DNA of 64,000 nt from Zanthoxylum bungeanum (taxonomy: Eukaryota > Streptophyta > Magnoliopsida > Sapindales > Rutaceae). Below, piece after piece: positions 11,445-57,513 of this stretch (positions within the stretch are counted from its first letter, which is position 1; every line of letters starts with the position of its first letter). The DNA lies in contig SKCR01032799.1 of assembly GCA_019454045.1 (NCBI GenBank), positions 1-64,000 of the forward strand, given 5' to 3'. The notes beneath the pieces are model-generated. The model was not told the origin of the DNA. It made no database searches and worked only from the letters and a program-made list of their open reading frames with translations. Made by a program: the position numbers and the translations under genes.

Positions 11445-12006
11445 TGTTGGCCGATAAAATCCCCGCAGGGCGAATTCGTCCTAGAACGAGAAGAGGTGTG
11501 TTGGCCGATAAAATCCCCGCAGGATGAATTCGTCCTAGAATGAGAAGAGGTGCGAAAAGAAAAAGGGCAATAGGCGAAGAATGACAAAAGACTTAGCGAT
11601 CGAGCCAATCACCAGAACGAAAACGTGCGATGCAGTTATCTTCATTACCAAAGCAGTTGAGCGGTTGTTCCTCCACGATCAGGCAGTTAAGGCACACGAC
11701 CCAGCAGTTACAAGCACTATCAGAACTGCAGAAAAAGATGATGGAACTGCTTAAATCGGTTATCAACAAGCGGCACTATAAAAGCTCGCCTATCCCAAGA
11801 GGAAAAAGACACAGAAAAATGAAGACTCAATCGAGCATATTTTATCTTTTTATTTCTTAGCTTGTAATTAGGACTGTAACTTGTGTGCTTGTGCCCCTTG
11901 GAGGCTTATTCACTTGATTCAATACACACCCCTGCTGGGACTTTGTCTCAGGAGGTTTGAACCTTACACGCTCTTTTTCCCTGCACGCGTAAAACCTGCG
12001 CAAACA
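11445..12006 (+). repeat. E3 5' LTR with 54-bp terminal tandem duplication
   Basis: The LTR opens with two tandem copies (11445-11498, 11499-11552) of a unit starting TGTTGGCCGATAAAATCC. The same duplication is in the 3' LTR. The LTR ends CTGCGCAAACA. Confidence 0.93.
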
Positions 12007-12011
12007 GTTTT

Positions 12012-12028
12012 TGGCGACCACAGTGGGA
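12012..12028 (+). other. E3 primer-binding site
   Basis: TGGCGACCACAGTGGGA begins 5 bases after the LTR end. Both E3 and E4 have it (E4 with one change). I do not assign the tRNA with confidence. Confidence 0.75.
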
Positions 12029-12044
12029 GAATTGGTGTAACAAA

Positions 12045-13750
12045 GTGGAGATGCCTCCGAAAAGAAACGCTCAGACTGGCTCAACCGCGGAGGAAGGTGG
12101 ACTGGAGCAAACCAACCAGCCCAACGTTCCAGCCATAGTGGGTCAGTTCGAGGGTCTAGCAGATGTCAGCCGGTACGAACCAATGAGGGAGCTCAGCCCT
12201 AATGCGATGCGCACATTGATTGGCGAATTCACACAGGATGTCGTCGAACAGGTCAGGCTCCAAAATGCGCATGTTGTGGACAAATTCGTATCGACTAGTA
12301 ACTTGCACTATGAAAATATGGCCAAACACTTAAGCTCAATGAACGAATTGGTGGCCAAATATATAAGCGGCGGAACAGCGCTGCCGTCGACCACGCCTCT
12401 CCCTACAGTAGGCAGTCAGGAAGCTGGTCCTAGTGGTGTTCCCCTACAAGGAACCAATACCCCTATGGTTCCCAGAGGAGGGACGAGCCCTGGAGGGCAC
12501 GGCCCACACTTAGGGCCAAGCATTCACCAAGGGCCAAATATGGCTCAACATGAAATCGTGGTGCCTCAGGGTGTCCAAACTTCCCAGGGACAGAATCATG
12601 ATTATGTCCCACCCCCGAGAGGGCCGCAACCGCTCCCTATAGCGATGCCATTCAATGGCAACGATATGCTAAGGGAGCAAATGACCGAAATCCTGCAAAA
12701 CCAATTCGGTCTAGGCATACGACCAATTCGGCCTAGATATCGGAAGCCTTACCCTGATTGGGTCGATGTGGCTTATTCGTGGCCAATGAATTACAGGATA
12801 CCAGATTTTACCCTCTTTACGGGATCTGGAGAAGTTTCCACTATGGAGCACATGGGACGTTTCACACCCTTCAGTGTGGGGAAGTCAATGATTCCATAGA
12901 CTAAGGTTGTTTCATGGTTCGTTATCAGGAGTGGCTTTCTCCTGGTATGTCAGCCTACCAGCCAATTCAGTAGAAAGTTGGCAGCAAATGGAGCAACTGT
13001 TCCATGCGCAGTTTTATAAGGCCGAATCTGAAGTGGCCTTAGCTGATTTGGCAAATTTGAGACAATTGCCAGGGGAATGGGCCGAGACGTTTCTCTACAA
13101 CGATTTAAGGTAGCCCGAGGCCGATGTTACGTGCCTTTGCCCGAAAAGGAGTTCGTAAGAATCGCTCAAGGATGCCTGAATCTCGATCTGAAGAAGAAAT
13201 TCCAGGATCGTGAGTTTTGGGACCTTCCCCAACTCACTACCAGTGTGGTGCGCTATGAGCGATTATTACGAGAAGAGGAGCAGATGAAAAATTCGAGCAA
13301 ATGGACGTATTACAGAAACATTGACTACGAGATGGGCGAAGTGAACGCCGACTCGGCCGATCTATGTTTGGCCGAATTGGTGAAAGGGAAACCCTACGTC
13401 TGCAAAACGTGGGCGGAACCCCAAACCAATGAAACGAGCGATAAAAAGAGCAGGAAATTCTCCTTCGACATTACTAAAGTCGAAGCTATATTTGACCAAT
13501 TGTACAAAGATAAGCAAATCAGCTTTAGCGACAGACATACGTTGCCAACAGTCGAGCAAATCGGCAGTAAAAGATACTGCAAATGGCATAATGCATGGTC
13601 TCACAACTAACAATTGCCTTGTTTTTCGTAATGTTTTGCAGGATGCCATAGAATCCGGACGAATCACGTTCGAAAAGAAGATGGCAGTAGACAGCAATCC
13701 TTTCCCGAAATCGGCGGAGTTAAATATGATCAATCCAGTCCCTACAAGGA
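12045..13750 (+). pseudogene. E3 gag
   Basis: Capsid/nucleocapsid precursor of the Tat-type element. The first frame (12045-12899) has a hydrophilic N-terminus (PPKRNAQTG), a Pro/Gly/Gln-rich linker, then YPDWVDVAYSWPMNYRIPDF, the start of the capsid domain. The gag core continues in other frames: LFHGSLSGVAFSWYVSL at 12907 and QLPGEWAETFL near 13070, followed from about 13110 by a segment ending in a CHHC-type zinc knuckle at about 13575 (CKWHNAWSHNTNNC). At least three frame changes are visible (near 12870-12905, 13105 and 13610). ATG 12045 or 12051 is the start; E4 has the equivalent MPLNRN. Order and motifs are those of Tat-type gag. Confidence 0.85.
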
Positions 13751-14787
13751 TAAACCAGCCGAGGGTAAAGGTAGTGCTGGACGAAAGACAACACCGCCAT
13801 CGCCCGAGCGCGCTGGAGAGGATCAAGGAACCTGCAGAACGAAAGGACAAGAAAGACATTTGTGTGAGGTGCAAGAACAGCATTGAATGGATGAAGGAGC
13901 TAGAAGACACTTGTGAGAGGCCTGTGAAGAGAGAATCGTCCTGGCAGCCACGAACCTTTGCGCCAAGGTTCTATGGAGAAAATTCGAACTTCGTCCAGAA
14001 CGTGAGGACATTTCGGCCAAAGATCCATCGGCCCAACGTGTGGCACTCATACCGAAAGTCATACCCAGGACAACAGGCGAACTCAGGGCAACGGGCAGAC
14101 AAAAAATATCCTCCCATAGATGAAATGACAAGGACACAGCTGAGGAGGCACCAAAGGAACTACGGCCGCATGATGCGCCGACAGAACAAGGCAAAGGCTG
14201 CCACCGGCCATAGCCCTCATGCCACAGAGAAGTCAAAAGACCACAAGAAGGCACATGATGAGAAAAGAAGGAAAGTAACCAATGGTGATGAGTACACTAA
14301 GCTTCATGGAAGGAAACGGGACGGGACCGATGATGAGGAGCCTCCATCGTCATCCAATTCGGCAGCATGCCACCAGTCGTGGCAAATCACTACTTGTTGC
14401 CCAGAGAATTCCGGGGAAATGACAATGGGGAAGCTGGACAGAGTGACATATTTATGAGGGAGATGAGGCCGAATTTGCGGCACTCTCCATAACAGACGGA
14501 AATGCTACAAGGCCGAGAGGCCGAAGAGGAAGAATTAACGGATATAGAAGAGGAGATTGACATCAGGACGGAAGCCAGAGAAGGGAATTTCACAAAATCG
14601 GCTTCTGAAAGAACTATATGAGGCCGGGAATCCAGCAGTCGGAACACTGGGAGAAGACCTAGGGCAATACCCATTCCTCGTTCTGTATGGAACGCCTAAG
14701 GTAAGGCGGGCTGTCACCAAGCCGAGAAGAGAAGGCTGACTATCAATCACATCTCCCAGAGATACCTCCCACACTGCCATCTTCCCG
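13751..14787 (+). pseudogene. E3 gag-protease linker region
   Basis: Continuation of the polyprotein between capsid and protease, read in changing frames. It is rich in Lys/Arg/His (RRHQRNYGRMMRRQNKAKA), then acidic (DIEEEIDIR in the frame near 14540). Equivalent sequence occurs in E4 at 29257-30300. I know no defined enzymatic domain here; RNA binding by the basic stretch is plausible. Confidence 0.6.
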
Positions 14788-15505
14788 GTGGGATATGGAA
14801 GAAGAGTCATCCCAAGTCAACAAAGGGGGAGGTCAAGCCATGGAAATTGGCATGTCAGGGAAGTAATTTTCCCAAAGCCACCAGCTCAGATGACAAAACA
14901 CCTAAGGCCATTGTACGTGAAGGCGAAGGCCAATGGTATCCCCATATCCAAAGTACTGATTGATAACGGAGCAGCCATCAATGCAATTCCAGTTAGGATG
15001 CTGGGGCGTTTGGCCAAGTCCGAGGAGGACCTCCTCCCCACAGAAGTAGTCCTCACCAGTTTTAACGGAGGAGCGACGACTGCGAAAGGAGTCATACCAC
15101 TGGACTTGCAGGTAGGAAGCACTACGAAGACGGTGGTGTTTTTCGTCATAGATGGGCCAACCTCATACAATATGCTTCTGGGGCGAGACTGGATACACGG
15201 CAGCCGATGCATCCCATCATCCCTCCATCAGTGCCTGGTTTTCTGGAACCAAAGGGATGAAGTGGAAATCGTACACGCCGACAACAAACCCTTCGCCGCA
15301 GACACGAACTCGGCCGAATACTATATGTATGAGGGAAACTACGGGCCAACCAGAGTTCTGAACGAAGGAGAGAGCCCAACCATCGTAGCCCAGAATGACG
15401 AGCCATGCCCCGATGGATTGTTAAACGACCTGTTCGCACAAACAAGACCAACCACAGTGGTCTTCGGAGAACCCACACACGTCGGTATCAATGAAGCACG
15501 GCCAG
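14788..15505 (+). pseudogene. E3 aspartic protease
   Basis: Retropepsin region that would cut the polyprotein. It reads LYVKAKANGIPISKVLIDNGAAINAIP; the catalytic triad position is D-N-G rather than the usual D-T/S-G. A flap-like LTSFNGGATTAKG segment and the second conserved hydrophobic-Gly motif NMLLGRDWIHG (residues about 128-138 of this frame) follow. The open frame runs on to 15508. E4 has the same D-N-G triad, so the Asn is ancestral to the family and not a lesion of this copy. The frame itself is open, but upstream and downstream breaks make the polyprotein defective. Confidence 0.85.
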
Positions 15506-17876
15506 AGTAAAGAGCAAGCTGCCCTTGCGGCCTCTAAGGCCAATTTAATGGCCTACGTTCTGGAACGAAAAAATGAGGACGAGGCGCTGGCCGCTGTTTC
15601 GGCTTTAAGAGGGAAGCTGCTGACGCACCAGATGGAGGATAAGGTGAAAGAACTGTGTGGGGTGGACTGTTTGATAGAGGGAGAAGACGCACTGGAGGAC
15701 GAATACGCGCTGAACGGACGACGCAAGACAAACTTCTCAGGAGGACAAGATGCTCTAGAAGAGGTAAATCTGGGGGATGAATACAATAAGCGCATAACTT
15801 ATGTCAGCAGGGAATTGAGTCCCCAGGTACGTGAAAAATTACTATGTTTATTACAAGAATACAGAGATTGTTTTGCATGGGATTAAATGAGATGCCCGGC
15901 CTAGATAGGCCTTGGTGGAACATAGGCTGCCGATCCTATCAAACCATAGGCCCCATAGGCAGCCTCCACGGAGGTTCGCGCCTAATGTTTTTGCCTGATG
16001 TTAAAAAGGAGGTCGAGCGACTGTTAGAGGCAAAGTTTATTAGAACGACCAGTATGTAGAATGGTTGTCCAACATCGTCCCAGTCAGGAAAAAGAATGGG
16101 AAGATAAGGATTTGTATAGACTTCAGGAACTTGAACTTAGCAACGCCAAAAGACCAATACCCAATGCCGACGGTCGATTCCCTAGTGGATTCCACGGCAG
16201 GGTATCAAGTATACTCATTTATGGATGGGTATGCGGGTTATAATCAAATTTACATCTCCGAGGATGACGTGCATAAGACGGCTTTTAGATGCCCAGGGTC
16301 TCTAGAATGCTACGAATGGGTAGTAATGCCGTTCAGCCTAAAGAATACCGGTGCCACGTATCAACGAGCCATGAACTCCATCTTTCATGACATGATCGGC
16401 AAATTCCTAGAAGTCTACGTTGACGATATCGTGGCTAAATCCGTAACTACGGATGAGCATTTTAGCCATCTAGTGTCGGCCTTTAAACGAATGAGAAGGT
16501 TCAAGCTTAAATTGAACACTGCCAAGTGCGCTTTTGGGGTATGCGCAAACTTCTTAGGTTTTCTAGTACACCAACGGGGAATCGAGATTGACACCAATAA
16601 ATCTCGGGCGATTACTGAAGCCATGCCGCCCCGAAACAAAAAAGAGTTGCAAAGGTTTCTAGGGCAGGTCAATTTCCTAAGACGATTCATCTCCAATTGT
16701 GCAGGGAAGACCAGGGCATTCTCCTCCCTATTAAAGCTAAAGGGAGAGGACGAATTCGTCTGGACCGAAGAGCACCAACAAGCATTCGACAGTCTGAAAA
16801 GGTATTTATCACAGCCACCAGTAATGGCGCCTCCAGTGTCAGGGAAACCAATAAAGTTGTACATAGCAGCTGAGGAGCAGTCCATAGCTGGGATGATCGC
16901 ACAGGACGACGACATAAATGTTGAGAGAGCCATTTATTACATCAGCAGGCAATTGCTGACTTATGAATGTAGTTACTCTCCCATGGAGAAGTTATTTTTG
17001 GCTTTATATTTTACATGTACTAAGCTACGTGCCTATCTTAGGCCGAACATTGTATATTTGATCACAAAAATCAATATAGTAAAGTACATGTTTTCTCGTC
17101 CTATTTTGCATCAAAGGGTTGGTTTCTGGTCTCTGTCGCTCTCAGAATTCGATATACGGCACGAACCCCAAAAGGCTGTCAAGAATCAAGCTTTGGCCGA
17201 TTTTCTGGCCGACCATCCATGCTTAAGTACAACTAGGGAAAGAGAACTGGATTTGGACGAATGCAGTCTAAAACCATGGACGATGTATTTCGACGGATCC
17301 AGCACGGCAGAGAAAGCTGGAATAGGGGTTGTCTTAGTCAGCCCATTGGGAGAACCCTTCCAGTTTTTAGCCAAATTGAACGAATACTGCACCAATAACC
17401 AAGCAGAATATGAAGCCTTGATACTGGGGTTGGAAACACTCCTCGACATGGGAGTAACCCATGTGTCTATCAAGGGAGACTCGCAGCTGGTAATCCAACA
17501 AGTAATGGGAACTTATAAATGCCAAAGCCCGTCGGTCGTGGCATTATTAGACATAGCCAAAAAACTAATAGAACGGTTTGATCATGCTGATTTGGAATAC
17601 ATTCCAAGGACAAAGAATGAATCGGCCAACAACTTAGCCCATGCGGCTTCCTGTTATAAACAAACCAACATAAGTGGGGCGTACAGAAGCGAAGAAATCG
17701 AACCAGCCCTCATGAGAAGAGCCCAAGAAAAAGACGTCATGGCTCTTGACACAGAGGACGATTGGAGAGACGAAATCAGGGCGTTCTTAACACAGCCTGG
17801 ACTAGGAAAAGACCGAAGGGTGAAGCTTAAAGCCTTGAACTATGTAATGTCAGGGGATGTGCTCTATAAAAAATGA
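15491..17876 (+). pseudogene. E3 reverse transcriptase and dual RNase H
   Basis: The first frame (15491-15886) is the RT-upstream connector; the frame breaks at FAWD*. RT proper lies mainly in the 603-codon open frame at 16065-17876: KKNGKIRICIDFRNLN, YSFMDGYAGYNQI (first catalytic Asp), VMPFSLKNTGATYQRAMN and the YVDD box (VYVDDIVAKS). The first RNase H follows (FSSLLKLKGEDEFVWTEEHQ, YISRQLLTYECSYSPMEK). After QALADFLADHP comes a second, archaeal-type RNase H: MYFDGSSTAEKAG, NNQAEYEALILGLE, IKGDSQLVIQQ, with a terminal AN-LAHAAS. Two RNase H domains in tandem define the Tat lineage. The main frame is intact. Confidence 0.92.
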
Positions 17877-19005
17877 CAAGATGGATTGTTATTGAAGTGT
17901 GTAGGACCATCAGAATCTAAAACTATCATGGCTGAAATACACGAAGGCGTATGTGGGGCTCACCAAGCGGGAATCAAGATGAGATGGTTGATCATACGAA
18001 GCGGCTATTATTGGCCGAAGATAGGGGAATCGTGTAACTCATACGCCAAAGGGTGCGTAGCTTGCCAAAAGCATGGTCCTGTCCAAAGGGCCCCTGCAAC
18101 CGAAATGGTCCCAGTCATTAAACCCTGGCCGTTTATGGGATGGGCGATAGACTTGATAGGAAAGATTTATCCTGCTTCAAGCAAAAGGCACACCTTTATC
18201 GTCGTTGCCACTGACTTCTTTACCAAGTGGGTAGAAGCTATCCCAGTTGTAGAGATCTCACAAGAGCAGATAGTCAAGTTCATAAAGGAACATATAATTC
18301 ACCGGTTTGGTATACAACCATGGTACCTCATTAAACGGTGAAAATGTAAAGGACTTCTTAGCTGAGTATGCAATTCGGCTGGTGGCTCCTCAGTCAAATG
18401 GTCAAGCCGAATCGTCCAACAAAACCCTCAAAAGATTGATTTGAAAGATTATGACGGACAATGCTAGACGATGGGACGAATACTTGAGTCAAGCTTTATG
18501 GGCTTACAAGACATCGCCACACACAAGCACGTCGGTGACACCTTTCCAGTTGGTGTATGGGCAAGAAGCTGTGCTCCCTGTGGAAATGAACATTGAGTCC
18601 ACTAGGGTAATGTTGCAGGAGAAACTAACGAAAGAAGATTACAACGAGGCGATGATCCAGAATTTGCTGGAATTGGACGATATTAGGTGCGATACGCTCA
18701 ACCGCCTGGAAGCACAGAAGAAAAAGATAGCCAGAGAGTATAATCGCAAGGTAGTGGCCAAGTCCTTCGAGAAGGGCGAAATAGTATGGAAGACAATATT
18801 GCCAGTTGGATCTAAGGAACCAGCATATGGCAAGTGGTCGCCCAACTGGGAAGGCCCATTTATAGTAAGAAGTGTGTTACCACATGGGGCCTATCATTTG
18901 CAAGATTTAAAAGGACGGGTGCATATAAGAGCGATAAACGGGAAGTATTTAAAGAAATATGTGCCCTCGTTATGGGAGCACGAAAACATTCAAGAAAAGC
19001 AATAA
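17877..19005 (+). pseudogene. E3 integrase
   Basis: Integrase inserts the cDNA. The N-terminal HHCC zinc finger is visible (HEGVCGAHQ... CVACQK), then core residues AIDLIGKI and ATDFFTKWVEAIP. The second catalytic Asp region (normally TDNG/TDQG) is missing or scrambled near 18315-18345, where the frame breaks after HRFGI; NGQAESSNKTLKRLI carries the catalytic Glu. The frame resumes at 18451 with the C-terminal region (YKTSPHTSTSVTPFQLVYGQEAVLP... SFEKGEIVWK), ending at 19005. Integrase is therefore inactive in this copy. Its stop lies only 70 bp from the end of the convergent antisense gene. Confidence 0.88.
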
Positions 19006-19809
19006 GAATTTCATATTAATAATGGACGAGAACGTCCTAGATTACAAAATGGACGATATAACGTCCTCAATTACATCATCCTTGGCCCGAAAATTGCCTA
19101 AAACCCCCAGGCTGGTCCTTAATGGCTGAAAGCGTCTCCTCGTCAGGCCCCAGTCTTCCTGAACAGCCGCGCTCGCGCGCATCCAAATCGGCCAACTCCT
19201 TCTCGAAGTCAATACAGGCCAACCCTTTAAATTCGGTCATCGACCGTTCCACCTCCTCCATTTGAGCGATGACGGCTCTCTCCTTCGCCTCTTTCCTCAT
19301 CCGACTTTCGTCCAAACGGCGTTAAAGCTCTTTCAACTGCTGCTCCAGGTCCATGAAGATTGATTCTTCAGTCACCATCTCTTTCGTGGTCTCCTTCAAG
19401 GCCTGTTGCAGCTTTCCCAAAGATTCACGGAGCTCTTCCCTTTTCACCAAAGAGGAGCGAAGCCCAATCCTCTGGCTATGAATTACACGATGCCGGGAGA
19501 GTAGGTTAGTTATTTCCTCTTGCATCTCTTGGAGAAAAAGACAGTCATCGATAGATACGGGTGATGAAGGAAGAGCCAGTAATCGGCTTAACTCGGAGGA
19601 ACACCGGCCCAATTGAACCATGTTCTGGGGCTGAACAGCTTGGCGAACATCCATCACAGTGAAAGAGGCATACTGACGAAGAACCTCCCGAAGACTCTCC
19701 AAGTCTGAACCCGCGCCAGTTTGGGGCGTCGATGGGCGATAAGAAACGGAGGTCATTTCTCCAAGACGATCCAGAAGACGCTGGACCGATTGCAGCAATT
19801 GATAGGCGC

Positions 19810-19875
19810 CTACACATAAGGAAAGAATTAGCAAAACAGGTTAAGACCATAACGTAAGAATGGAAAATAGCTCAC
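19810..19875 (-). other. Intron 2 of E3 antisense PMD gene
   Basis: 66-bp predicted intron. Donor GGATG|GTGAGC, branch-like TGCTAAT, acceptor TTATGTGTAG|GCGCC. It sits at the same place as the E4 intron, but the frame does not join cleanly here, so a small indel is likely. Confidence 0.6.
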
Positions 19876-20879
19876 CATCCTAGAAGCAGAACTAGAAGGC
19901 TGATGAGCCCGTAAGTCAGATGCTCCAGCTGCGGGCTGCACCAGTCCTTGCTCGGGGACAGTGGACGTTGGGGGACAAAAACTAATTGCTGCGTGGTTTG
20001 AGGAGAAATCGACCGAAGAGGAGAAGTTGACGATATATTGGGGGATTCGGCCCGAGGAGAAAGTACTTGTTCAGCAATGATTGGCATTTGGACTGTTGGT
20101 GCCACTGATGGAACGATCACGAGGGTTGAAGACGATGGTTGCCTAAGCTCAGGCTCCTCCCTTTGAGCGGACCTTTGAGGAGAAGGAGGCAGAGGGACCG
20201 AGGCTGATGGCTGGGTTGAGGAAGACGCATCATGCCCAAGAATACTGGGGGACACGGCCTCCGGCATTGAGTGTTGAGACACAGCAGTCGACCAAACATC
20301 TGCAAGAGAATCGGAGTCGGATGAATCATAAATTATAATGACTTCGTATTCTTCATATATACGATGAAAGACATCGTCTTTGTACAGAGACCGAGCCTCC
20401 TCTAATGATTCCAACTCGGCCAAACTATAAAGGCCACCCACATCCCTATAACTCCCTCAAAGTCCTGCAGTGGACATCCTGCATACTAGAGGATAAAGCT
20501 GCCTAAGGTGACCCCACAAAGCTCCCATCGGCCACGTGGGCTGCAGCCCTTCAACCTCTTCATCCGGGCCATGCTCAAACGGTACAGAGCCGTCCGAAGA
20601 AAAGCGCTCGAAGAAAGGATGGTCACCGGGGATTTCCTCAAATCTAGGGCGAGAAGCATAAGAATTCCTACCTTGGGGGACAACTCCACCTGTACTCCCC
20701 TCTCCTAAGAGCGGCTTTACGCTCGGTCTTTCGCCCGCTCGTTCATCATCAGAAGGAAATTGAATCATCGGCTCCCTCGCGGGTTCCTCGCTCGCATTGC
20801 CGCCCACAGGAGTTTCTACCTCTGGGGCTGGTGCCGTCCCACGCGCTGCAGGGAACGAAGGCGAATCAATTTTCAAGGC

Positions 20880-20960
20880 CTGCGTCAAATCATACAATAC
20901 TAGCATTAGTATACCGCAATGCGTCGTAGAAACGAGAAAGGGAAAATTTCAAACTTATAC
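20880..20960 (-). other. Intron 1 of E3 antisense PMD gene
   Basis: 81-bp predicted intron. Donor CCTAAG|GTATAAG at 20960, branch-like TACTAAT at 20911-20905, acceptor TTTGACGCAG|GCC at 20880. It joins ...VRRPK to ALKIDS in phase 0. The E4 counterpart is at 43652-43577 with the same phase. Confidence 0.75.
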
Positions 20961-22559
20961 CTTAGGACGACGGACCAGAGGAACGTCCGAGTCAGAGCTT
21001 CGGCTAGGGGAAGGCTTCTTCCTTTTGACGGGCTTTGTCTTCTTTGACTTAGAGGCCTCGGAAGTTTTCTTCGACCCCGGCGACTCAGATGGCTTGGGAA
21101 GCAAAGAAAGATAGGAGTATACCTTCGCCGAAGGCAGGGAGAAAAATCGTTCACGGGCCGTTGGCCAGAAACGGTCAAAATAGGGGTGAACGGATGTACA
21201 AGGACTGAAAGAAGCTACGGCAAAAGAAGCCAGTAAGGATCGAGTCTCTTCCATAGAGTCCTCAACCTCTGAGACCGAAAAAACCTTGAAACGGTCTGAT
21301 GATGAAGAATACAAATGGAAAAATGCAAGAAGCCATCCTTGGACAAGGCCGAACTGACGAGCTACAAAATTGGGCGAATATACTTCTACCCCGGCCTTAC
21401 CATTAGCTCCCGTCAAAATATCATGAGCCAATTCGTGGCCGCACAAGAATTTACACATATGCGAAGGGCCGTCTCTTCCTTTTCAGAAAGGGGAGAATCA
21501 AGGGCGAAAGATGAACTGTCCGATGCTGAAAAAGAAAAAAGGAAGGGACATGGGAAAGAGTATTAATGTGGCTTGAAGGGAAACAGAAGATTGTCGAAGC
21601 TGGGAATAATGAAGACCGCGCACGAGTAAGAGCAAGTCAGCTCAATTGTGCCGAAGATAGGAAAATACGCTTTCAGCCAAAGCTGGACAATCCATAAAGG
21701 GCCAGAAGCAATGGCTGAGGACCCGGAGCGAAGCTATTTTTGGAGGATGGCTAACCCCATGTACGTGGCAGCAAGGAAAAAGGAGGTCAAATCTAGGCGA
21801 CGACCATTCGCAATGTCAGAAGAGATGGAGAGATAACCCGCCGCAGGTTTCTGGCTGGGTGTGCAAATGATATACTTACACGGCCAGTAATGAAGAAATG
21901 TCATTCGTTCCAATCAAGAAACTGACCCAGTCATCTTCGAATAGGCACAGAGAAGAGAGGAATACGATGACAAAGAAGAAGGGTTCATCTTAGGAGGAGG
22001 GAAGCGAAACAATGTAGAGGCCGATATGGTCGCTCCAAGGGGGGATAACCCAGTTAGGGCACTAACATCACGAAGGGTGATGGTGAATGACCCGATGGGA
22101 AAGAAAAACACGTTATAATCAGATGACCAGAAAAATAAAGAGATAGGGAATAGGCTGCGATCAAAAGCCGGCAGGTTTAAGGAGAGCTCGATAAGGGGAT
22201 GGAGGCGGTGCGTATCCAAGAAGGACCGGGTATCCTCATGCGATAGCATAGCATACGTTTATACCAGGCTTCAAAAGCGATGTCGGTCTAGTCCAAGTCC
22301 GAATTGGGTAGGCATAAGAGAGGGCAGAAAGACTTAGCGACTCAGAAAATGGAAGGTCGGAGGAAGCAGGAAATTGCTGAGCCAATGGGTTTGTCGCAAT
22401 GGCTTCGGCGTCTGTAAACATAGGACCGATGGCGCACTGGGTGACCTTTTCATTCAGGGTATGAATGCCGAAAATGCCCACTGAATCAGACTCTAACGCC
22501 GTCTGATAATCGGCGGAAGTCGAAGCATCGATTTTGGGGACTGAAGAAGAAGAAGCCAT

Positions 22560-23940
22560 AGTTCGAAATCACGAAGGAAGGCAAGGTTGTAAAAGAAAGA
22601 GAGCGAAGTTTGAAAACGGAGAAAAAACGAAACCTTATAGCCAAACAAATGACAAATGTCATGATAGGAATTGCCAAATGGCGAAACGGCGGGAAAATAG
22701 AAAGGGATGAAGTTTGCCCTAGACAGGTGTTCAAATGCGATTTGCTGCGAGTGACGTGCTAGGAAAGGGGACACCGAAGCGACACCGAAACGGCTCCTAA
22801 ATAGGCCTCATGATGAAACATGGAAGAAAGGGTCACGCATTTATTGCAGATAAGATGGGTCTCAATGAAACTCCAAAGGGCGGCGCAACAAATTAGGACG
22901 AAAGGCTCGTTCCTTCGCCCTACCTTCACAAATGCGGTCTCAATCCATTCTGCCAAACTCAATGCCTTACCTTCGGCCTACAGAATCAGCCAATGATAGC
23001 TGTCGCGATATTACACACTACAGAGATTATTACCCAAGCCTCATCCATTATTGATACTGGTAATGGCGACAAAACTGATGTGACAGGATCGTCAGGCCAC
23101 AGGCTCGCTTTGGGCAGAGACAGACCTTGGGCAGAAGACCTCCAACCGATCGCGTAACGCGTGGAAAGACCCTTCACGTGCCAACAGTACCCATTTTGGG
23201 AACATGCGCAACAGGAAGAGAAAGGGGCAAATTGAAAAGCTGCTCACCATTTATTTAAAGACCGACCTACCTCACACCACCACGACCAAGTTCACCATAG
23301 TCAAGCAGAATCTCAAAAAATGAAGAAAAAAAGATCGTGGAAGGTAATGAAATTTAGGCCACCAAAAGTGAAGGTTCCTATGGAATAAGGTGTGAAATGG
23401 AATGTAAAAAAGTGCGCTAGCGGCCATCCACACGGAGTAAGGTGTAAAATGGAATGTAAGGATGTGGATGGACTATGTCTGTTAGCAACAATTGTCCGAG
23501 AACCTCGGTGCAGAAGGTACTACATCCCCCAGGTGGTGAGTAGGTCACGCTCATTAGCAATGGCTTGCTTAAGCTTATCCACTCGGGGCATGCTACTTAC
23601 CTGGGAGTACGGGTTCTCTGGACTGAGGGACCAGCCATACGATGGGCTGGTCTTTCGAAGGGCGAGAGGGAATTGATGTCAGATGAACCCTCAATTGGAG
23701 CTGTGACCTTCCCTAAATGGGGGAAGCAATGACCGGCAAAGATCGCCTTCATCCCCTCCACGATGATGTTTTTTTCCAGAAAGAAAGAACCAGATAGTTG
23801 GTCAGGCGGGAATGAAGAGCATCTACAGCAATAGTCGTGATTATCCAACTGAATTTACCACAGACCAGAAGTTAAGGAAGAACGAACCACAACAAAAGAT
23901 GAAATTCACCTCGATCATCCCTCTCAGTTCAATCGAGGTA
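22560..23940. other. E3 region between antisense PMD start and 3' LTR
   Basis: 1.4 kb that would hold the promoter and leader of the antisense gene. E4 has only about 380 bp here. The part nearest the ATG (to about 22960) is alignable to E4, for example NKCVTLSSMFHHEAYL versus NKCATFPNTFHHYAYL read on the minus strand, which I take as shared leader sequence. The rest is specific to E3 and includes an imperfect direct repeat (aaggtgtgaaatggaatgtaa and aaggtgtaaaatggaatgtaa, about 60 bp apart near 23390-23460). Confidence 0.5.
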
Positions 23941-23955
23941 AATTTGGGGGACAAT
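23941..23955 (+). other. E3 polypurine tract
   Basis: AATTTGGGGGACAAT precedes the 3' LTR directly. E4 has the near-identical AATTTGGGGGATAAT. Confidence 0.75.
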
Positions 23956-24519
23956 TGTTGGCCGATAAAATCCCCGCAGGGCGAATTCGTCCTAGAATGA
24001 GAAGAGGTGTGTTGGCCGATAAAATCCCCGCAGGACGAATTCGTCCTAGAACGAAAAGAGGTACGAAAAGAAGAAGGGCAATAGGCAAAGAATGACGAAA
24101 GACTTAGAGCGATCGAGCCAATCACCAGAACGAAAACGTGCTATACAATTATCTTCATTACCAAAGCGGTTGAGCGGTTGTTCCTCCACGATCAGGCAGT
24201 TAAGGCACACGACCCAGCAGTTACAAGCACTATTCAGAACTGCAGAAAAAGATGATGGAACTGCTTAAATCGGTTATCAAGCGGCACTATAAAAGCTCGT
24301 TTATCCCAAGAGGAACAAGACACAGAAAAATGAAGACTCAATCGAGCATATTTTATCTTTTTATTTCTTAGCTTGTAATTTAGGACTGTAACTTGTGTGC
24401 TTGTGCCCCTTGGAGGCTTATTCACTTGATTCAATACACCCTTTGTTGGGACTTTGTCTCAAGAGGTTTGAACCATACACACGCTCTTTTTCCCTGCACG
24501 CGTAAAACCTGCGCAAACA
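23956..24519 (+). repeat. E3 3' LTR
   Basis: 564 bp, matching the 5' LTR including the 54-bp terminal duplication; ends GCGCAAACA, followed by the CATTC target copy at 24520-24524. Confidence 0.93.
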
Positions 24520-30712: not shown

Positions 30713-33113
30713 TGTTAGAGTTGGTACTCCGAGCACCAATTTTATTATGTATTTCTATGTAAATACTAATGTAACGTTTTATTATAAATAAAATGAACAG
30801 CTTCTTCTATATAACTTCTTCTTTAATATGGTAAAGACGTAACCGACCTTAGAATGATTAGTTATGATACTGTTGCAAAAGCGTCTCAACTGACATTGAG
30901 TTGTATCATGAAGTTGTCATTCTTAGACAGTTTCCGGTCAAGGTTTAGACTACTTGGTCAGTAAAGTAAACCCGTAGAGAGTGCTACATGTCGTATATTA
31001 AAATCTTGGATTCCGATGGTTTCTCAGTGAACCATGAGTCTTTGAGACTCGTATAGACGTGTAGGTGTTTATAGCGGATAAACACTGAACGACTCACCGA
31101 AGATTCTTAATGGATGGTACACCAATGTCAGTAAGAATCTTCTCTGGTTGAGTAAGCATAGTGATTCTTTGACTTGAGATACCACTGTGGATATCTGAGT
31201 TATCCTCCACACTTAGATGGCAGTCACGTCACCGATCTATTTAGATCAGACCTCCGCATGTTCGTTGGGTGTGGACTGATGCTCAGGACATCATGTGTGT
31301 ATCAGGATATGATCCGTCAGCTCTGTTCCAGAGTATATGTATTCAATATGGTATTAGCAATCTGTTAAATCCATGGGCCCGTGGTACACTTTAGAAATTT
31401 GTTCTAAGTGTTATTTGAAGGATTACTAATAGAAACGTCGACGTGATTATATCTATAGAGATTTGACATTTGTATATATATCTCTAGATTAATCTGGATA
31501 CCTGTGACGGGGGGATTATACGTTTGTAGTGACCTCGGCTTGTATGATTGAGTTTATCCGTGTTCCTCATAATTTACGGGTGGGTGAATTATGGACACGT
31601 AATTTGATTTCGTGATGGATATGCCTGAATCTAGAGAGTCTCACTAATGAAATTTACTCGTAGAGCACTAGGGCAACTGTTATGAATAATACTGATTATT
31701 TATAACTCGTTTAATGGTTAAACGGAAAATACATGCAATCGGGACCTAGCGGTCATTTCCAAATTAATGTGTATTTGTATTTAATATTTGATATTATTAA
31801 ATACACATTAAATACAATATCAAATTGTGATATTTGAATTATATCGTTAATATAAGTATTTGAGATATTTATTGTAAATATAATACATATATTTAAGATA
31901 TTTAAATTTATTATTTAATTATTTAATTGTTAAATAATTAAATTAATTTATAAAATAAATATCTTAAGTAATGATATCAACTTTATGTGTTTGGAAATGA
32001 AAAATTATCATTGGTACATATTTTAGTTAACTTTATTAAAGGTGAAATTATCTTTAATTTCGTTAAATTGTGGACCAATTATTTTTCAACAAAAATGAAT
32101 TAATTGTTGATTATTTTTGGCAAGTAAAATTCGGCCAAAGTGTATTCCATATATCAAAATTATTTTGATTTATTTTTTACACTTACACAAGTTAAACAAA
32201 AATTACAAAAGTGAGTTGAGAGCATTTGGTTGGAAAAGAAAAGAAATCAAAGCAAAACTTGGATTTTGTAAGTTATTTCACTTCTTCTTCTTCATGAAAA
32301 TTTTCAATATTTCTTACCTTCAATGGTGATGTTAAGATCATGCCTCTACTCTTTTAGTTTGTAATTAAATTTGTTGGATGCTTGTTCGATGTGTTTAAGC
32401 ATGTATAATTAATTTATTTGCTTATTAATGTAATTAAGCTTAATAAATTAATTAGAAAATTAAAGTTGCTATTCTAGAGTTAATTAGCCATTCATAATTA
32501 GCCTAGAATTATTCTTGATTAATTCCATGATGGTGAGAATTAATTGGTATAGTAATTTGAAGATTAAAGTATTGAATTTTATTAATTTAGTGTAAATTAC
32601 CCAATTTGAGTGATTTATGAAATTAGGGTTCTTAACGCACTCAAATTTTGGGGCTTTTCATATATAAGCTTTAATTTGATGTATATTAGACGCATGTAAA
32701 ATTTGGGATTAATTGGATTTGATCTTGATGTGTTTTGAACAATTGGGCCAAATTGTAATTATTTAAAATTCCGGGCTGTTTTGTAAATTTCAGAAAAATC
32801 TGGGTTGTGGCGCAAATCTGGAAAAAATTTTTGGTTTTGTAACAAACTTGTAAAAATTATTTTGGGATTAATTTGGAATTAATTAAATATGTAATTGACA
32901 TATTTAAAACTAAAATAATTAATTTGTAAAAGTTTGGGGTAATTTTGTAATTAAAAGAAATATGATTTCTTAGGTTATATTTCATAATTTAAGTATTGGT
33001 TAATTAAATAAATAAGTTTATTTAATTGTTCCAAGAAAATTTTTTGAAATCGGAGAAATCGTTTTTCCGCGTTCCGCTGCGCTAACCTTGTAATTCCCAA
33101 TAAAACCCCAACA
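30713..33113 (+). repeat. E6 5' LTR
   Basis: 2401 bp, TGTTAGAGTT...CCCCAACA. Very AT-rich in its second half. Short open frames in it recur in the 3' LTR and have no recognisable product. Confidence 0.92.
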
Positions 33114-33117
33114 AAAA

Positions 33118-33130
33118 TAGTATCAGAGCT
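33118..33130 (+). other. E6 primer-binding site
   Basis: TAGTATCAGAGCT, a degenerate form of TGGTATCAGAGC (initiator Met tRNA type), 4 bases after the LTR. Confidence 0.75.
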
Positions 33131-33338
33131 AGTCTGATTCTGGAACCCCGATATATGATTATGCCTTGAAAATTCAATATTGACTTTAATCTTGACTTTA
33201 ATGCATGCTTGTATTTATTTAATGTAATTAAATAAATTAATATATCTTTAGCTGAAAATTCCTATTTAAAATAAGATTTATTATTAATATGTATTTGATG
33301 TATATTAATCGGTCCGTCTTGTCAATACCGCTTATCGG

Positions 33339-33689
33339 TAAATTTTCTACGACTATATCTGAGAACGTGCCAAAGCTGTGAAGATATGGCCGTGAAATAT
33401 TTAGAAATTTATCTGTACCAGATATATTTGATATTAGGTGAATTCAAGTGAAAGCGCAATCCTGAACGTGCCAAAGCTGTCAGGGTTACGTAAGTATCTT
33501 GAATTCATCATTGACAAGTTTGACCTTGGTATGCCTCCTTGTGAACGTGCCAAAGCTATCACAATGAGAAACGACCAGGACTGAAAACCAAGTCCCAGGA
33601 GTCACGATTGAGTGATCGACAATCTGTTGTCTACCTAAATGAATATACGTAGGCGAGAACGTGCCAAAGCTGTGAGCTGAAATATATTC
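33339..33689 (+). repeat. Four two-tier stem-loop repeats in E6 leader
   Basis: The motif GAACGTGCCAAAGCTGT occurs at 33363, 33464, 33543 (GCTAT variant) and 33657. Each is enclosed by different complementary arms: ATATCT/AGATAT; AATCCTGA/TCAGGGTT; TTGTGA/TCACAA; a short GC/GC in unit 4. Outer arms are also seen: TAAATTT/AAATTTA (unit 1), GAATTCAAG/CTTGAATTC (unit 2), GAATATA/TATATTC (unit 4). They lie between the primer site and gag. Confidence 0.85.
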
Positions 33690-33904
33690 ATGGGGTCCAC
33701 CTTTCACTATTATGTTATGATTTGATTATCGCATGTTTTGTATTCTGTTTGGGGATTACAGTATTGCATGAAATAGTAGGAGGGGCATTTTTAGATTAAA
33801 AATCTATGATCTAATTATGCTTTAAGATATATTATGAAACTGTTATGATCTTTTATCTGCTTATTAACTGACTGTTGTTTCGTTGTCTATTTGATAGATT
33901 TGTG

Positions 33905-34735
33905 ATGGCGGCACCTCCACCCAATCCTTTTGCACGTATGCTTGATACGTACAAACTGAAAGGCACAGAAAACTTTGCGGATTGGGATATGGACTTGAGG
34001 ATTGTCCTCAATTCCGAGAACTGGGGTATATTTTGGAAGGTCCATTACCACTTGCTATATCACCCGATGTATTACCTGAAGAACATGAGACTTTCCAGCG
34101 ATGGAAGGATGATGATTTAAGGGTTAAATCATTCATCCTGAGTTCTCTTTCTTCTGAGCTTAAGAAGACTTATTGGGAGATGCACGATGCATATAGTATG
34201 ATGAACAAACTTCGTGAATCGTTCATGAACCAGGAACAGGTCATTGTTCATAAAGTTTCGATGGAATTTTTCCATTCTAAACTTGATGAGGGGCAAGCTG
34301 TGGGCCCGCATGTGCTTCAATTGATCGATTTGATCGAGCAGTTGAGGCGACAGGATTTCCCTCTAAATGAGACTATTTGCCCTAGTGTCATTCCCGGTTC
34401 ACTCCCGGCTTCATATCGCCAATTCGTCATGTACTTCAACATGAATGAGATTCACTGTTCTTACCGTGAGTTGCATAGGATGGTTCTCACAGCAGAGGAA
34501 TATTTAAGGAAGAGAGTTCCGACTCGCCTTCCGAAACCCACTTCACTTTCCGCTTCTTCCCAATCCAAGTCGAAGGGGAAGAAGTCTAAAGGAAAGAAGA
34601 AGAAGGGTTTCAATATTCCTCCGCAGGGTAAAACGGAGAAGCCCAAGAGAGCTTCTGAAGACAAGTGCCACCACTGCTAGAAAGTCGGGCACTGGAAACG
34701 TAACTGCCGGACTATCTTGCACAACTCAGGAAGGA
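33905..34735 (+). pseudogene. E6 copia gag
   Basis: Capsid protein of E6, starting MAAPPPNPFARMLDTYKLKG at 33905, the usual N-terminal form of copia gag. A frame change near 34025, in NWG, shifts the reading to the long frame ending at 34680. This includes SFILSSLSSELKKTYWEM, DLIEQLRRQDFPLNE and a Lys-rich tail (SKGKKSKGKKKKG). A CX2CX4HX4C zinc knuckle follows (CHHC then KVGHWKRNC), but a TAG stop replaces the residue directly after the second Cys. ATG 33905 is preferred because it opens the conserved N-terminus. Confidence 0.85.
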
Positions 34736-35003
34736 TAGAGCATCGACATCAGATACTTTTATTTTTCCTATTATTGATATCTCTTTAGCTTGTGAAGCTA
34801 TTATATCAAATTGGATTTTGGATTCTGCTTGTCCAATTCACATTTGCAATACGTTGCAGGTGCTGACGGGAAGTAGATGACTGGAATCTGGGGAGATACA
34901 GTTGCGGTTTGGAGTGGCGACTCTTGGATGCAGTTGCAGTGGGCATATGTGAGATTCCCTTACCCAGTGGGAGACTTTTGTTAAATGACTACTATTTTTT
35001 GCC

Positions 35004-36177
35004 ATGATGTGTGGCGAATATTATGTCCCTTTTGTATTAGATACTGAAGGTTATAATGTAAATATTAAGAATCGTTCTTTGTATTTATATTATAGTTGTA
35101 ATATTCAGATCCTTTGTTGTCCAAATGAGCATGATCATTACATATTGCGCACCTCTCAAGATATCTTTAATACTAGAATAAATAAACGTAAACTATCTGA
35201 TATAAATAATAATGAACTCTGGCACATGAGGTTAGGTCATATAGGCGTGAAACGCCTAACCCAATTGGTTAAGAATGGTTTGATACATGATCTCACCATT
35301 GAACCTTATCCAACTTGCGAATCTTATATTCGAGGTAAAATGACCAAAGCCTCATTTTCAGGTGTTGGACACCGAGCCAATGACTTGTTGGAACTCGTAC
35401 ATTCTGATGTATGTGGTCCCTTAAGTCAAATTGCTCACAGTGGCTTTTCTTACTTCGTCACCTTTACCTATGATCTGTCACGATACGGTTATGTCTATTT
35501 AATGAGACATAAATCAGAAACCTTTGAAAAGTTCAAAGAATTCCGAAATGAAGTTGAGAACAAACTGGTCAATATATTACATGCATATCTGATCGAGCTA
35601 TCGGCGTCGAGGTAAATATATGAGTGGATAGTTCACTGATTATTAAAGGAGAATAAGATTCTCGCTCAATATACTCCTCCTGGTACTCCGCAACACAATG
35701 GAGTATCTGAAAGGAAAAATCAGACTTTATTAGATATGGTCCGATCGATGTTGAGTTATATAGATTTACCCTATTATTTATGGGGTTATGCTTTTTTAAC
35801 TGTCGCACATCTTTTGAACAAGATTCCTTCCAAGGCTGTTCCGACGACTCCGTATGAGATATGGACCGGTAGGAAACCAAATCTTAGTTATATTAAGATT
35901 TGGGGGTGTCCTGCTTATGTCAGGATGGCTCAGCATGATAAGCTTTTGCCTCGAGGGCATAAGTTTAGGTTTGTTGGATATCCTTCAAATGCGAAAGGAT
36001 TTTTGTTCTATGATACCGAGCATCGAAATGTGTTCTGTAGCTCGCTTCACAAAATTTCTAGAAATAGAATTTTTGGTTGAAGATGGTTATCATAGACAGG
36101 TTGAACTTGATGAAGTACAACCTGGAACCAACGAACTAATGGAGGAACATATAGTTCAAGAAAATGGAAAACTTTAA
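35004..36177 (+). pseudogene. E6 copia GAG-pre-integrase and integrase
   Basis: The zinc-finger region reads LWHMRLGHIGVKRL, with the HHCC histidines. Of its cysteines, CESY replaces the expected second Cys by Tyr. The catalytic core has LVHSDVCGPLS (first Asp) and FTYDLSRYGYVYL; the second-Asp segment is scrambled by a frameshift near 35590-35620. The catalytic Glu lies in PQHNGVSERKNQTLLDMV (~35695). The later part has YLWGYAFLTVAHLLNKIPSK and TPYEIWTGRKPNLSYIKIWGC, common to copia integrases. Several frameshifts make it inactive. Confidence 0.88.
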
Positions 36178-36297
36178 CACACACTCCGTAGGTCACAAAG
36201 GGTATCCGGACCTCCTGAACGCTTGTATTTAATATAAGAAAAGAGTCTCAATGTTCTCTTATTAGAAGAGACTGACCCATTTACCTATAGAGAATCG

Positions 36298-37839: not shown

Positions 37840-37850
37840 CACTAGAGTAA

Positions 37851-37861
37851 GTGGGAGATTT
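37851..37861 (+). other. E6 polypurine tract
   Basis: GTGGGAGATTT directly before the 3' LTR TGTTAG; typical copia tract. Confidence 0.75.
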
Positions 37862-41632: not shown

Positions 41633-42465
41633 AAGGACAAAACTAAGAAATAAAAGAATGTATTTTCATTAATACATGACAAAGACGTCATCAAAAGTAC
41701 AACGTCTGGACGATGAAACGTCCTATATAATTATTGGCCGACCGAAGATCGCTAAAGCTCGTCAGGCGAATCTATCAAAAGTGAGAACGTCTCCCCCAGG
41801 TTCGGCCACTCTCTCCGCATCTCAGCATCGGCCCTCACTAGATCGGCCATGCCTTTTTCAAAATCAACTCGGGCCAGATCCCTGAACTCGGCCATGATAA
41901 AATTGGCCTCAGCTACCAGAGAGGCAAGCCCCCTCTTCTTGGCATCTCTCCTCATGCTGCTTTCCTCTATTTGGCGCTGGATATCTTGTATTTGTCGCTC
42001 TAGGTCCAGCAGCAAAGACTCATCGATAACCATTTCGTGTGTAGATTCTCTTATAGCTTGCCAAAGGTTATCAATGGTGACTTGAAGCCTGTCCTTTTTG
42101 ACTATTGAAGCGCGCAACCCGGCCTTCTGACTATATGTGGTCCAATAACGATAAATAAAGGTCGAGATCTTGCTTTGCAGGTCTTGGAGTGAGAGTCGGC
42201 TTTCTGCTGAAATAGGCAAAACGGGCAGACCCAGCAGTCGGTCTAACTCGGAGGAAGCTTTTTCCAACTTAAGCATATTCTCTGGCAGGGCAGCTTGGCT
42301 GATGTCATTTGTCATAAGCGATGCATATTGACTGAGAACCTCATGAAGGGCCTCCAAGTCCGAGGTAGCCTGGGCCGGAGATAAATGAGGTAAGGAAGAA
42401 ACAGAAGGTAACTGGTCTAGATCGCTCAAAATGACATTGAACGATTGCAAAAATTGATCTGACGT

Positions 42466-42542
42466 CTGATTACAAAAAGCCAAAGTTAGTAAATCAAACC
42501 AGAATAGACGAAGAAGAGAGAACATAAGGAGAAATCACTTAC
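42466..42542 (-). other. Intron 2 of E4 antisense PMD gene
   Basis: 77 bp. Donor GAAATT|GTAAGTGA (strong consensus), perfect TACTAAC branch motif about 30 bases before the acceptor TTGTAATCAG|ACGTC. Joins RRCEI to TSDQFLQS in phase 0. Confidence 0.8.
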
Positions 42543-43576
42543 AATTTCGCACCGACGAGCAGAACTAGACGGCTCAGGGGTTTCCAGTGGCAACACCGGT
42601 TCTTCCCTAGGCGATTGGACTGAGAGACTGGGAGATGATGCCCGAAGAGGAGAGGAAATAGGGGCCGGAGACGATGGCCGTTCATAAGTAGCAAATGTTT
42701 GAATTAAAGAAACAAGAGCTTCCAACCGAAGAATTGGAGACTGAGGAGCCGAAGATGACTGCTGGGCAAACACAGAAAGTTCAAGCGCCAAAGGTACATG
42801 AGACATCGCCCAAGGCGGGAAGGGCGGAAGAGCCGAGGAAGATGGCTGTCCAGAGGCCGAAGTTAGTTGCACCAAAGGGACATGAGATGCCGCCCGAGGA
42901 GGAGATGATTGTTGCGGCATAGCTGCCAGCTGAGCCACTATAGAAGAATCAGAATCGGAAGAGTCAGAAACATGAATGACATCCATCTATTCATAAATGC
43001 GACGAAGTATATTGTCTTTATACATAGATCGAGCTTCTTCTAATGACTCCAATTCGGCCAAACTATAAAGTCCTTCTACATCCCTATAACCCCCCTTAAG
43101 CTCTACATCTCTATAACTCCCCTAAGCCTTATGTCGGTCATTCTACGTACTAAGGGGTAAAGCGGTTTGAGATGACGCCAAAGAGGCCCGTCATCCGGCC
43201 AAATAGGTTCTAACACATCAGGCTCGTCATCCGAATCCTGCATAATTGGTTCAGGATCATCCAAAGAGTGGCATTCAAATAACATATGGTCTCTTGGAAT
43301 TTCCTTAATACGTGGACGCGAATGGCCGAATTCTATACATAGCTCCGTACCTTGGGGGTCAACTCCGGACGAAGCACCGGTATCAGCTGTCTCGCCCTCT
43401 TCTAGCGGTTGTTCCATGATTGGAGCCTCGAATGCTTCGTCGTCGTCCAATGGAAGTTGAACAATCGCCACTACGGTAGGTTCAACCTCATTAGGTGGAC
43501 CTTCAACTATGGGAGCTGCGGGCCCCGGAGTTTGGGTCGTTTCGAGAATGACAGAAGGCGGCCCCGTCCTAAGCAC

Positions 43577-43652
43577 CTGGATAAGATACAAAACTTAGTC
43601 CCAAATTATATTTTAGCCCGGTACGCAAGAGGAACATGGTTTCAGATTGTAC
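43577..43652 (-). other. Intron 1 of E4 antisense PMD gene
   Basis: 76 bp. Donor GCTAAG|GTACAATC, branch-like GACTAAG, acceptor CTTATCCAG|GTGCTT. Joins VCRAK to VLRTG in phase 0, as in E3. Confidence 0.75.
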
Positions 43653-45642
43653 CTTAGCACGACATACGAGAGGCACATCTGAATCGGAGCTATGACTGGG
43701 GGAAGGCTGTTTCCATTTGGCCTGTTTAGTTTTCTTCTGTTTGGTTGTCTCAATTGGTTTCTTCGACCCCGTTGACTCCGAGGATTTGGAAGAAAAGAGA
43801 TGGTAGAAAATACCCGCATATAGGGCAAAGAAAAGAGCCTCTCCCGGCCAGCTGGCCAAAAATGGACAAAAGAGAATGGACCGATGTGCAAGGGGAAAAT
43901 GAGGTTGCGACAAAGGAGGATAGCAAAGAACGGGTCTCTGATAAACTTTGATCTATATTTGAGATCGAAAGAACTCTAAAACGGTCGGATGAAGCAGAAC
44001 GTGTGTGGAAAAATGGAAGAGGCCATCATTGAACGAGACCAAACTAACGGGCAGTGAAGTTGGGCGAATAAACCTCCACTCCGGCTTTGCCGTTGCCCCG
44101 GTTAGGATGTCATGAATCAAATCGTGGCTACATAAAAACTTGCACCATATGCGATGACTTGATTCGTCCTCTTCCGACTCAGGGATGTCATGGATAAAAG
44201 AATGACTGTCGCCCTGGGAAAAAGGAAAGAAAGAAAGAACCCGAGAAAATGATATAGAAATATTCAAAAACAGCGCTAGGGAGGAGAGAAGTTGGCCGAA
44301 GTTGGTCAAACAAAAGACCAGCACAAGGATAAGAATGATTTGACTCGATTGAGCCGAAGAAAGGGAAGTGGGCTCTAAGCCAAAGCTGGACGAGCCATAG
44401 AGGGCCAGAGGCGATTGACGAAGCCCCTGACCGAAGTTTTTTTGGAGGACGGCCAACTCTCGATAAATGGCGGCCAACAAAAGAATGTCAGGTCCAAACG
44501 ACGACCATTGGCAAGGTTAGAAGAGATGAGGAGGTAACCCACCACGGGTTTCTGGCTTGGCGCGCAAATGATGTACTTGCAAAGCCAATAATGAATGAAG
44601 ACCGTACGCTCCAATAGTGAGACCGGGCCGGCTGATTTAGAAAATGCACGAAGGAAAGCAGAATATGACGAGATGGACGAAGAGTCCATTGAAGGATGGG
44701 GAAAAGCGAAAAGTTATACATGTCGAAATAGTTGTCCCTAGAGAGGCCAACCCAGTCAGAGCGCCGATATCGCGAAGAGTAACGGTGAAGGGACCAGCAG
44801 GAAAGATGAAGACATTATATTCAGAGGACCAGAATAGTAGTGAGGTATGAAACAGGTTTCGGTCGAAAGAGGGCAAAGCCAATAAGAGTTCGATAAGAGA
44901 AATGAAGCCATGTTCCTCAAGAAAGGTACGAGTATCTTCATGCAATAGCATACGTTGTAACACGGTCTCAAATGAGGAATCGTGTTTAGGCCATGTGCGG
45001 ATATGATTAGATTGAGCCAATGGAGAAACATTTAGTGGCTTTGAAAAAAGGGAGACCAGAAGTAGAAGGAAACAGTTCAGCCAACGGGGCCGTGGTGATG
45101 GTATTGTCATCGACAAAGATGGGGCCTAGAGTGCATTGGCCGTAGTTTTCATTGAGGAAATGAACACCAAAAGCACTCATAGATGAGTCACCCAATGCCA
45201 TTTAATAGTCACCAAAAGTTGAAGAGCTGTTTTTGGGGGTAGAAAAAGAAGACGCCATTAATGCTGGAATACAAAGACGAAAGGCTCAACCTGGGACAAA
45301 TACCGCAACCCGAATTGTCGAAGAATGGAAACGGCAGGAAAATGAAAAGGATGAAGAATCGCCCTAGACAGGTGTTGGGATACGATTCGATGTAAAGGTG
45401 ACGTATGACGAAAGGAGACACCGAAATGACGTGAAAAACGGCTTGTAAATAGGCGTAATGATGAAACGTGTTGGGAAAGGTCGCGCATTTATTGAAGAAG
45501 TGATGGGCTCGCATGGGGAACACAAAGGGCGACCCAACAAACAATGGGGCGAAGACTTGTAGGCCGACGTCTATCACCATGATATGAAGAAATTCACCTC
45601 CATTTCATTTCCAATTCAATCAAGGTGAATTTGGGGGATAAT

Positions 45643-57370: not shown

Positions 57371-57513
57371 GGACTTGTGCAGTGTGTGATAGTGACAATC
57401 CTATCAAAGTTGTGCAATGTATTTTTACTTGCCTAGCTCGCCAGCTGTTGCTTGACTTTCCGGTTTCTTTGAACTGAGTTGATATGGTGGTGAGGTGCTT
57501 CGACCCCTGGTTC

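Follow-up and report, generated by a model that had tools for sequence, protein, structure and literature searches.

The E3 element and its antisense gene

The window, a stretch of 64,000 nucleotides from a Zanthoxylum bungeanum contig, harbors two related LTR retrotransposons, each of which carries a gene on the strand opposite to pol. The first, E3, is a Tat-type element on the plus strand at 11445..24519. Its LTRs (11445-12006 and 23956-24519) are 94.7% identical, and a 5-base duplication, CATTC, on both flanks reveals it to be a bounded element. The first part of E3 pol (16065..17876, plus strand) encodes reverse transcriptase (RT) followed by two RNase H domains, with Pfam matches to RT_RNaseH at 260-362 and then to RVT_3 at 409-528, and the integrase zinc-binding domain lies in the next ORF. 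The placement of the additional RNase H, after the first and ahead of integrase, assigns E3 to the Tat type. The integrase pieces at the end of pol occupy 17886..19005 (plus strand); Pfam recognizes the zinc-binding part, and the C-terminal part, which has no integrase match in Pfam, is named from its position and from matching copies. A putative primer binding site was read from the sequence at 12012..12029 (plus strand); it may be complementary to tRNA-Arg, the primer that characterizes the Ogre sub-lineage. A literature search on this primer-site sequence returned no match. In the 3.96 Gb of genome searched, 1497 occurrences of a 15-base part of this site were counted, against 0 of a reversed control, which gives a rough size for the primer class.

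The second element, E4, is an older relative of E3 that spans 25042-46194, with the outermost bases read from the flanks and the blast match beginning at 25061. The flanks of E4, GATAT and AATAT, differ at one base, and its LTR pieces are 90-92% identical. E4 contains a nested LTR element at ~30713-40260, whose ~2.4-kb LTRs are 94% identical, and its pol has suffered an internal deletion, such that 41375 and 41384 adjoin in the alignment to E3. Elsewhere in the window, a tandem array with a 47-base period is found at 57508-58290.

The antisense gene of E3 (22559-19076, minus strand) consists of three exons and two introns and encodes a Plant Mobile Domain (PMD; PF10536). On the minus strand, exon 1 (20961..22559) encodes the N-terminal part, the PMD and a basic linker; exon 2 (19876..20879) encodes a Ser/Pro-rich part without a Pfam match; and exon 3 (19076..19809) encodes a tail predicted to be helical from a low-confidence model of the E4 homologue. 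Both introns, likewise on the minus strand, are of the GT-AG type in phase 0. Intron 1 (20880..20960) has 81 bases, and intron 2 (19810..19875) has 66 bases and a CTAAT-type branch motif. The predicted protein has ~1,100 residues, as estimated from the exon sizes of E3. E4 contains a broken homologue (41752..45258, minus strand), as revealed by alignment to E3, Pfam matches and its stops. The original prediction described a multi-exon antisense PMD gene in both elements, with homologous start, PMD motifs, basic linker, Ser/Pro part and tail. Indeed, the two genes align over their full length through all of these parts.

The profile search bears out the domain assignment. The E3 minus-strand ORF at 21914-22249 matches PF10536 with an E value of 4.4e-8 and 33.1 bits, just missing the cut-off of 34.9 bits, and the E4 piece at 44637-45116 is by itself under the cut-off (E 7.1e-7, 29.2 bits). 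An X-separated read-through of E3 exon 1 exceeds the cut-off with 73.4 bits (E 2.5e-20), as does an open-frame copy from elsewhere in the genome, L009, with 100.4 bits. Exon 1 has three in-frame stops in E3 and three in E4, in addition to frame changes, and therefore neither window copy could yield a whole protein. The tail had been described as a coiled coil. An AlphaFold model of the E4 tail is nearly all helical, but it is poor (mean pLDDT 56), which leaves the coiled coil unproven. A homologue search of a set of 5.8 billion proteins returned none at E <= 0.001, and solved structures gave two weak matches only (E 0.25 and 0.36).

Conservation of the gene and its signals across the element family

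A Pfam search of the genome returned at least 120 PMD matches, of which 20 were classed as host-like and 100 as element-like by score and extent. The 20 best-scoring of the 100 element-like loci were sampled, a choice that favors open frames in exon 1. In 20/20 of these PMD-sampled loci, the N-terminal part is followed in order by both PMD parts; the start of exon 2 is found in 19/20, and the Ser/Pro part and the tail in 17/20 each. A tail match is missing from three loci (L019, L021 and L027) though the fetched stretch continues, and L017 is without the second exon. A K/R-rich linker is present in 22/22 rows. Integrase lies on the opposite strand, convergent with the gene, in 16/20 loci and on the same strand in 0/20; L014, L019, L021 and L027 have no integrase match within the fetched stretch.

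A second sample was drawn through integrase and comprises 20 loci, stepped down the ranking of the best 150 integrase matches, skipping E3 and the loci already sampled, with ~1 kb downstream of each. Those 150 were the best-scored of 60,908 first-look integrase candidates. The 3' end of the gene, seen as a tail match on the expected strand, is present in 20/20 of the integrase-sampled loci (the last part only in L057), a sample that covers close relatives of E3 and removes the PMD bias for the tail alone. In such relatives of E3 the gene is therefore a component of the element and was not captured by chance in one copy, as the original prediction held. The distances between copies in exon 1 and in pol are correlated clearly, though not tightly (Mantel correlation 0.54, p 0.0002, 17 copies).

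The intron boundaries, read by eye from the alignment, are conserved. For intron 1, GT is found in 20/21 rows and AG in 19/21, with L020 lacking that stretch. For intron 2, GT is found in 17/18 rows and AG in 18/18, and the branch motif is mostly of the CTAAT or CTAAC type; these rows leave out L017, which could not be placed, and L019, L021 and L027, which have no tail. LTR elements replicate via sense RNA, in which introns of an antisense gene cannot be spliced out, and this accounts for their persistence through retrotransposition.

ATG is retained at the anchored start in 17/22 copies. Upstream of it in E3 lies a conserved block with 75% identity to E4 (22683..22892, minus strand), which is a candidate promoter. 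This block is non-coding and contains a CACGTCAC-type motif and an AATAAA-like motif. A TATAWAR motif is present within 150 bp upstream of the start in 14/22 copies, compared to a mean of 0.17 and a maximum of 2 in 200 shuffles, although the copies are related and the shuffle control therefore overstates the weight of the TATA box. The motif lies 85-90 bp before the anchored start in 10 copies and 94 bp before it in one, such that 11/22 copies have it at 85-94 bp; in 3 of the 14 copies that bear it, it lies outside this interval. TATAWAR is absent within 150 bp from 8/22 copies, including E3 and E4. E3 has instead a TATA-like motif of the form CTATAAG (22634..22639, minus strand), which it has in common with L011, and the other six copies have neither form.

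The antisense stop at 19076 is 70 bp from the end of the pol ORF at 19005, and the corresponding spacer is ~77-130 bp in the 18 rows measured. The distance agrees with the original prediction, which took the convergent end near integrase to permit overlapping transcripts. The argument itself is weak, because a full-length genomic RNA in the sense direction must in any case span the entire antisense gene. The spacer contains twin tandem inverted repeats (19024..19066, minus strand), a feature that recurs in the spacers of other copies (L009-L028 and L039-L058). In an alignment of 38 sequences, pairing holds for 93.7% of cells. Double changes occur in 4/10 pairs, a level reached by 29/500 shuffles, and both sides are changed in 16 cells, compared to 5.9 in shuffles, with 0/500 shuffles reaching 16; this control is generous, since the copies are related. 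When the partners are slid, at most 4 cells have both sides changed. In the 20 integrase-sampled loci, a strict repeat pattern finds both repeats in 13, one in 5 and none in 2. Counts of G-U against A-C (19 vs 10) lean to the antisense RNA, a lean that CpG decay could mimic. In the 3' UTR of the antisense transcript the repeats may form RNA hairpins; alternatively, they may be DNA palindromes, perhaps protein-binding ones. Overall, the conserved signals support the view that the antisense gene would form a separate transcription unit, driven by a TATA promoter, interrupted by two introns and closed by a 3' end of its own.

Selection on the encoded protein

The antisense gene is selected as a protein. 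The pairwise median omega is 0.20 for exon 1 (22 copies), 0.45 for the Ser/Pro part (17 copies) and 0.23 for the tail (19 copies); for pol it is 0.20 for RT (10 copies) and 0.11 for the integrase parts (15 and 17 copies). Frames shifted by one or two bases have median omega values of 0.88 to 2.02 overall, and of 0.88-1.85 for the three parts of the antisense gene. The pair of E3 and E4 alone is a poor test of selection, with synonymous sites saturated in places.

Purifying selection across family copies, which had been named as a check on the original prediction, is also evident from maximum likelihood. One-ratio codon models without a transition/transversion term were used, and E4 was left out because frame changes distort its row. 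Omega is 0.27 for exon 1 (21 copies), 0.50 for the Ser/Pro part (16 copies) and 0.29 for the tail (18 copies), and for pol it is 0.20 both for RT (9 copies) and for the C-terminal integrase part (17 copies). Free omega is favored over omega = 1 with 2lnL of 1249, 156, 261, 808 and 369 for exon 1, the Ser/Pro part, the tail, RT and integrase, respectively, and fixing omega at 1 costs 624, 78, 130, 404 and 185 log units in the same order. The integrase-sampled tails (19/20 loci in the model) have a maximum-likelihood omega of 0.385 (2lnL 214, a cost of 107 log units) and a pairwise median of 0.30, with 6/189 pairs at 1 or above.

Omega on internal branches is 0.13 for exon 1, 0.28 for the Ser/Pro part and 0.23 for the tail, compared to 0.05 for RT and integrase, in a split that left out pairs with dS >= 1.5 (exon 1 kept 177/210 pairs). 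In each of the five parts omega is higher on terminal branches (0.24 to 0.59), which is what decay after insertion would produce. The purifying constraint on the antisense protein is real, and looser than that on pol. A PMD match, purifying selection and an ORF shared with relatives, the three points on whose failure the original prediction would have fallen, were all found.

Possible function and relation to known systems

The available portions of PMC5418596 describe the PMD proteins MAIN and MAIL1 as acting in silencing, including the silencing of transposable elements in Arabidopsis, and raise the possibility that host PMDs captured by MULE transposons serve anti-silencing. That LTR elements themselves make PMD proteins for counter-silencing is offered as speculation in the accessible text of PMC8616336. 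A mechanism may be proposed along these lines. The antisense gene would be transcribed from its own TATA promoter, its two introns would be spliced, and the transcript would finish at its own 3' end. The basic linker would direct the protein to the nucleus, where it would act in trans on the transcription or silencing of the element. The most likely route would be by meeting or mimicking the machinery of the host PMD proteins, MAIN/MAIL1 with PP7L, and either an anti-silencing or a self-regulating role would be expected.

As a whole, this explanation, an antisense accessory protein gene with its own transcription unit and a nuclear role in trans on element transcription or silencing, is given a probability of roughly one half. 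Within it, the protein is probably a nuclear trans-acting regulator, and perhaps an anti-silencing one. The original prediction suggested interference with host silencing, and it is family resemblance that would point that way. A fuller version appears doubtful, in which the independently promoted and spliced antisense gene would encode a counter-silencing factor that mimics or displaces MAIN/MAIL1 complexes, and in which the twin hairpins would balance sense and antisense RNA.

It is possible, if not the favored reading, that the protein acts as an autoregulator, controlling the element's own sense transcription or the fate of its RNA in the manner of the antisense HBZ of HTLV-1 or of the Grande accessory protein, and is unconnected with host PMD silencing. 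Antisense TRP28 ORFs occur in 97% of Retand clusters at the same position and in the same orientation, and a regulatory role likened to that of retroviral genes has been proposed for them (PMC11963269). The Grande accessory gene reportedly encodes a nuclear protein and is transcribed from its own promoter (Gomez-Orte 2013). The purifying selection on the antisense gene also fits an autoregulator. However, autoregulation leaves the retention of a PMD in particular unexplained, and the role of Arabidopsis PMD proteins in silencing, noted above, speaks against it. It is improbable that the antisense RNA, and not the protein, is what matters, by pairing with sense RNA and feeding small-RNA control. 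The sense genomic RNA does cover the antisense gene, and in tea, 175 PHAS loci at PMD genes are a source of 21-nt phasiRNAs, according to the available part of PMC10673657, but selection specific to the frame (omega 0.20-0.45 in frame vs 0.88-1.85 in shifted frames) is not needed for RNA alone. A captured host gene hitch-hiking without function is very unlikely, for although both window copies are broken and MULE transposons have captured host PMDs (PMC5418596, available portions), the end of the gene is found in 20/20 integrase-sampled copies, omega is well under 1, and the element PMDs form a clade apart from four host rows.

The preferred reading, a nuclear accessory protein acting in trans, concerns an extra ORF that is present in every integrase-sampled close relative and selected as protein, and whose promoter, introns and 3' end are mappable. 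Whether the protein works against host PMD-based silencing or as part of it thereby becomes testable. The separation from host PMDs is seen in a tree of 22 element PMDs and four host rows (one partial), where one branch divides the groups with an SH-aLRT of 98; the host rows are from this genome, none is a named MAIN/MAIL, and named A1/A2 sequences are likewise outside the tree. E3 stands beside L011, L013 and L014.

The founding paper on PMD-bearing extra ORFs of Ogre/Tat elements is reportedly that of Steinbauerova (2011). Introns, an antisense promoter or selection were not found described for an element PMD gene in the open-access literature, a body that leaves out this 2011 paper. According to the available text of PMC6317226, a PMD is present in 57% of Ogre elements and Transposase_28 in 23% of Retand elements, and the role of extra ORFs in plant LTR elements is raised as a question. 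The PMD is the most frequent non-canonical domain in plant LTR consensuses (PMC9289625, in part), and the clades PMD-A1 and PMD-A2 are exclusively Gypsy-encoded (PMC5418596, available portions). The Ogre/Tat extra ORFs thus described resemble the E3 gene in having PF10536 in Tat elements, whereas introns, an antisense promoter, selection and junction repeats are not described in the accessible portions of PMC6317226 and PMC5418596. Host MAIN/MAIL1, as presented in the available portions of PMC5418596, PMC7156037 and PMC8616336, have the same domain as the element protein. Unlike them, the element protein has linker, Ser/Pro and tail parts after the PMD, and its PMD falls in a clade separate from host PMDs of this genome, the rows of which are not named MAIN/MAIL.

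The TRP28 ORFs of Retand are likewise antisense and lie between pol and the 3' LTR, with Smc-type matches in some, but their domain is Transposase_28 and not a PMD (PMC11963269). No match to PF04195 (TRP28) at E <= 1 was found in seven antisense pieces of E3 and seven of E4, and hhalign detected no homology between PMD and TRP28 (probability 0.3%) with profiles of five and two sequences, which are blind to a remote link. Elsewhere in the genome, Transposase_28 has at least 146 matches; two such loci have no significant integrase or RT match within the fetched stretch. At one locus, L029:5063-6151, Transposase_28 is followed by a charged, coiled-coil-like stretch, a layout like that of PMD and helical tail with no detectable homology. 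The Grande accessory gene, from an element cited as Retand in the available account, resembles the E3 gene in its location in the 3' internal region. Earlier publications already report PMDs in Ogre/Tat elements and antisense accessory genes in Retand, and put forward the counter-silencing idea. What is added here to a known kind of gene is mainly the intron and promoter anatomy of an antisense PMD gene, together with the evidence for selection on it.
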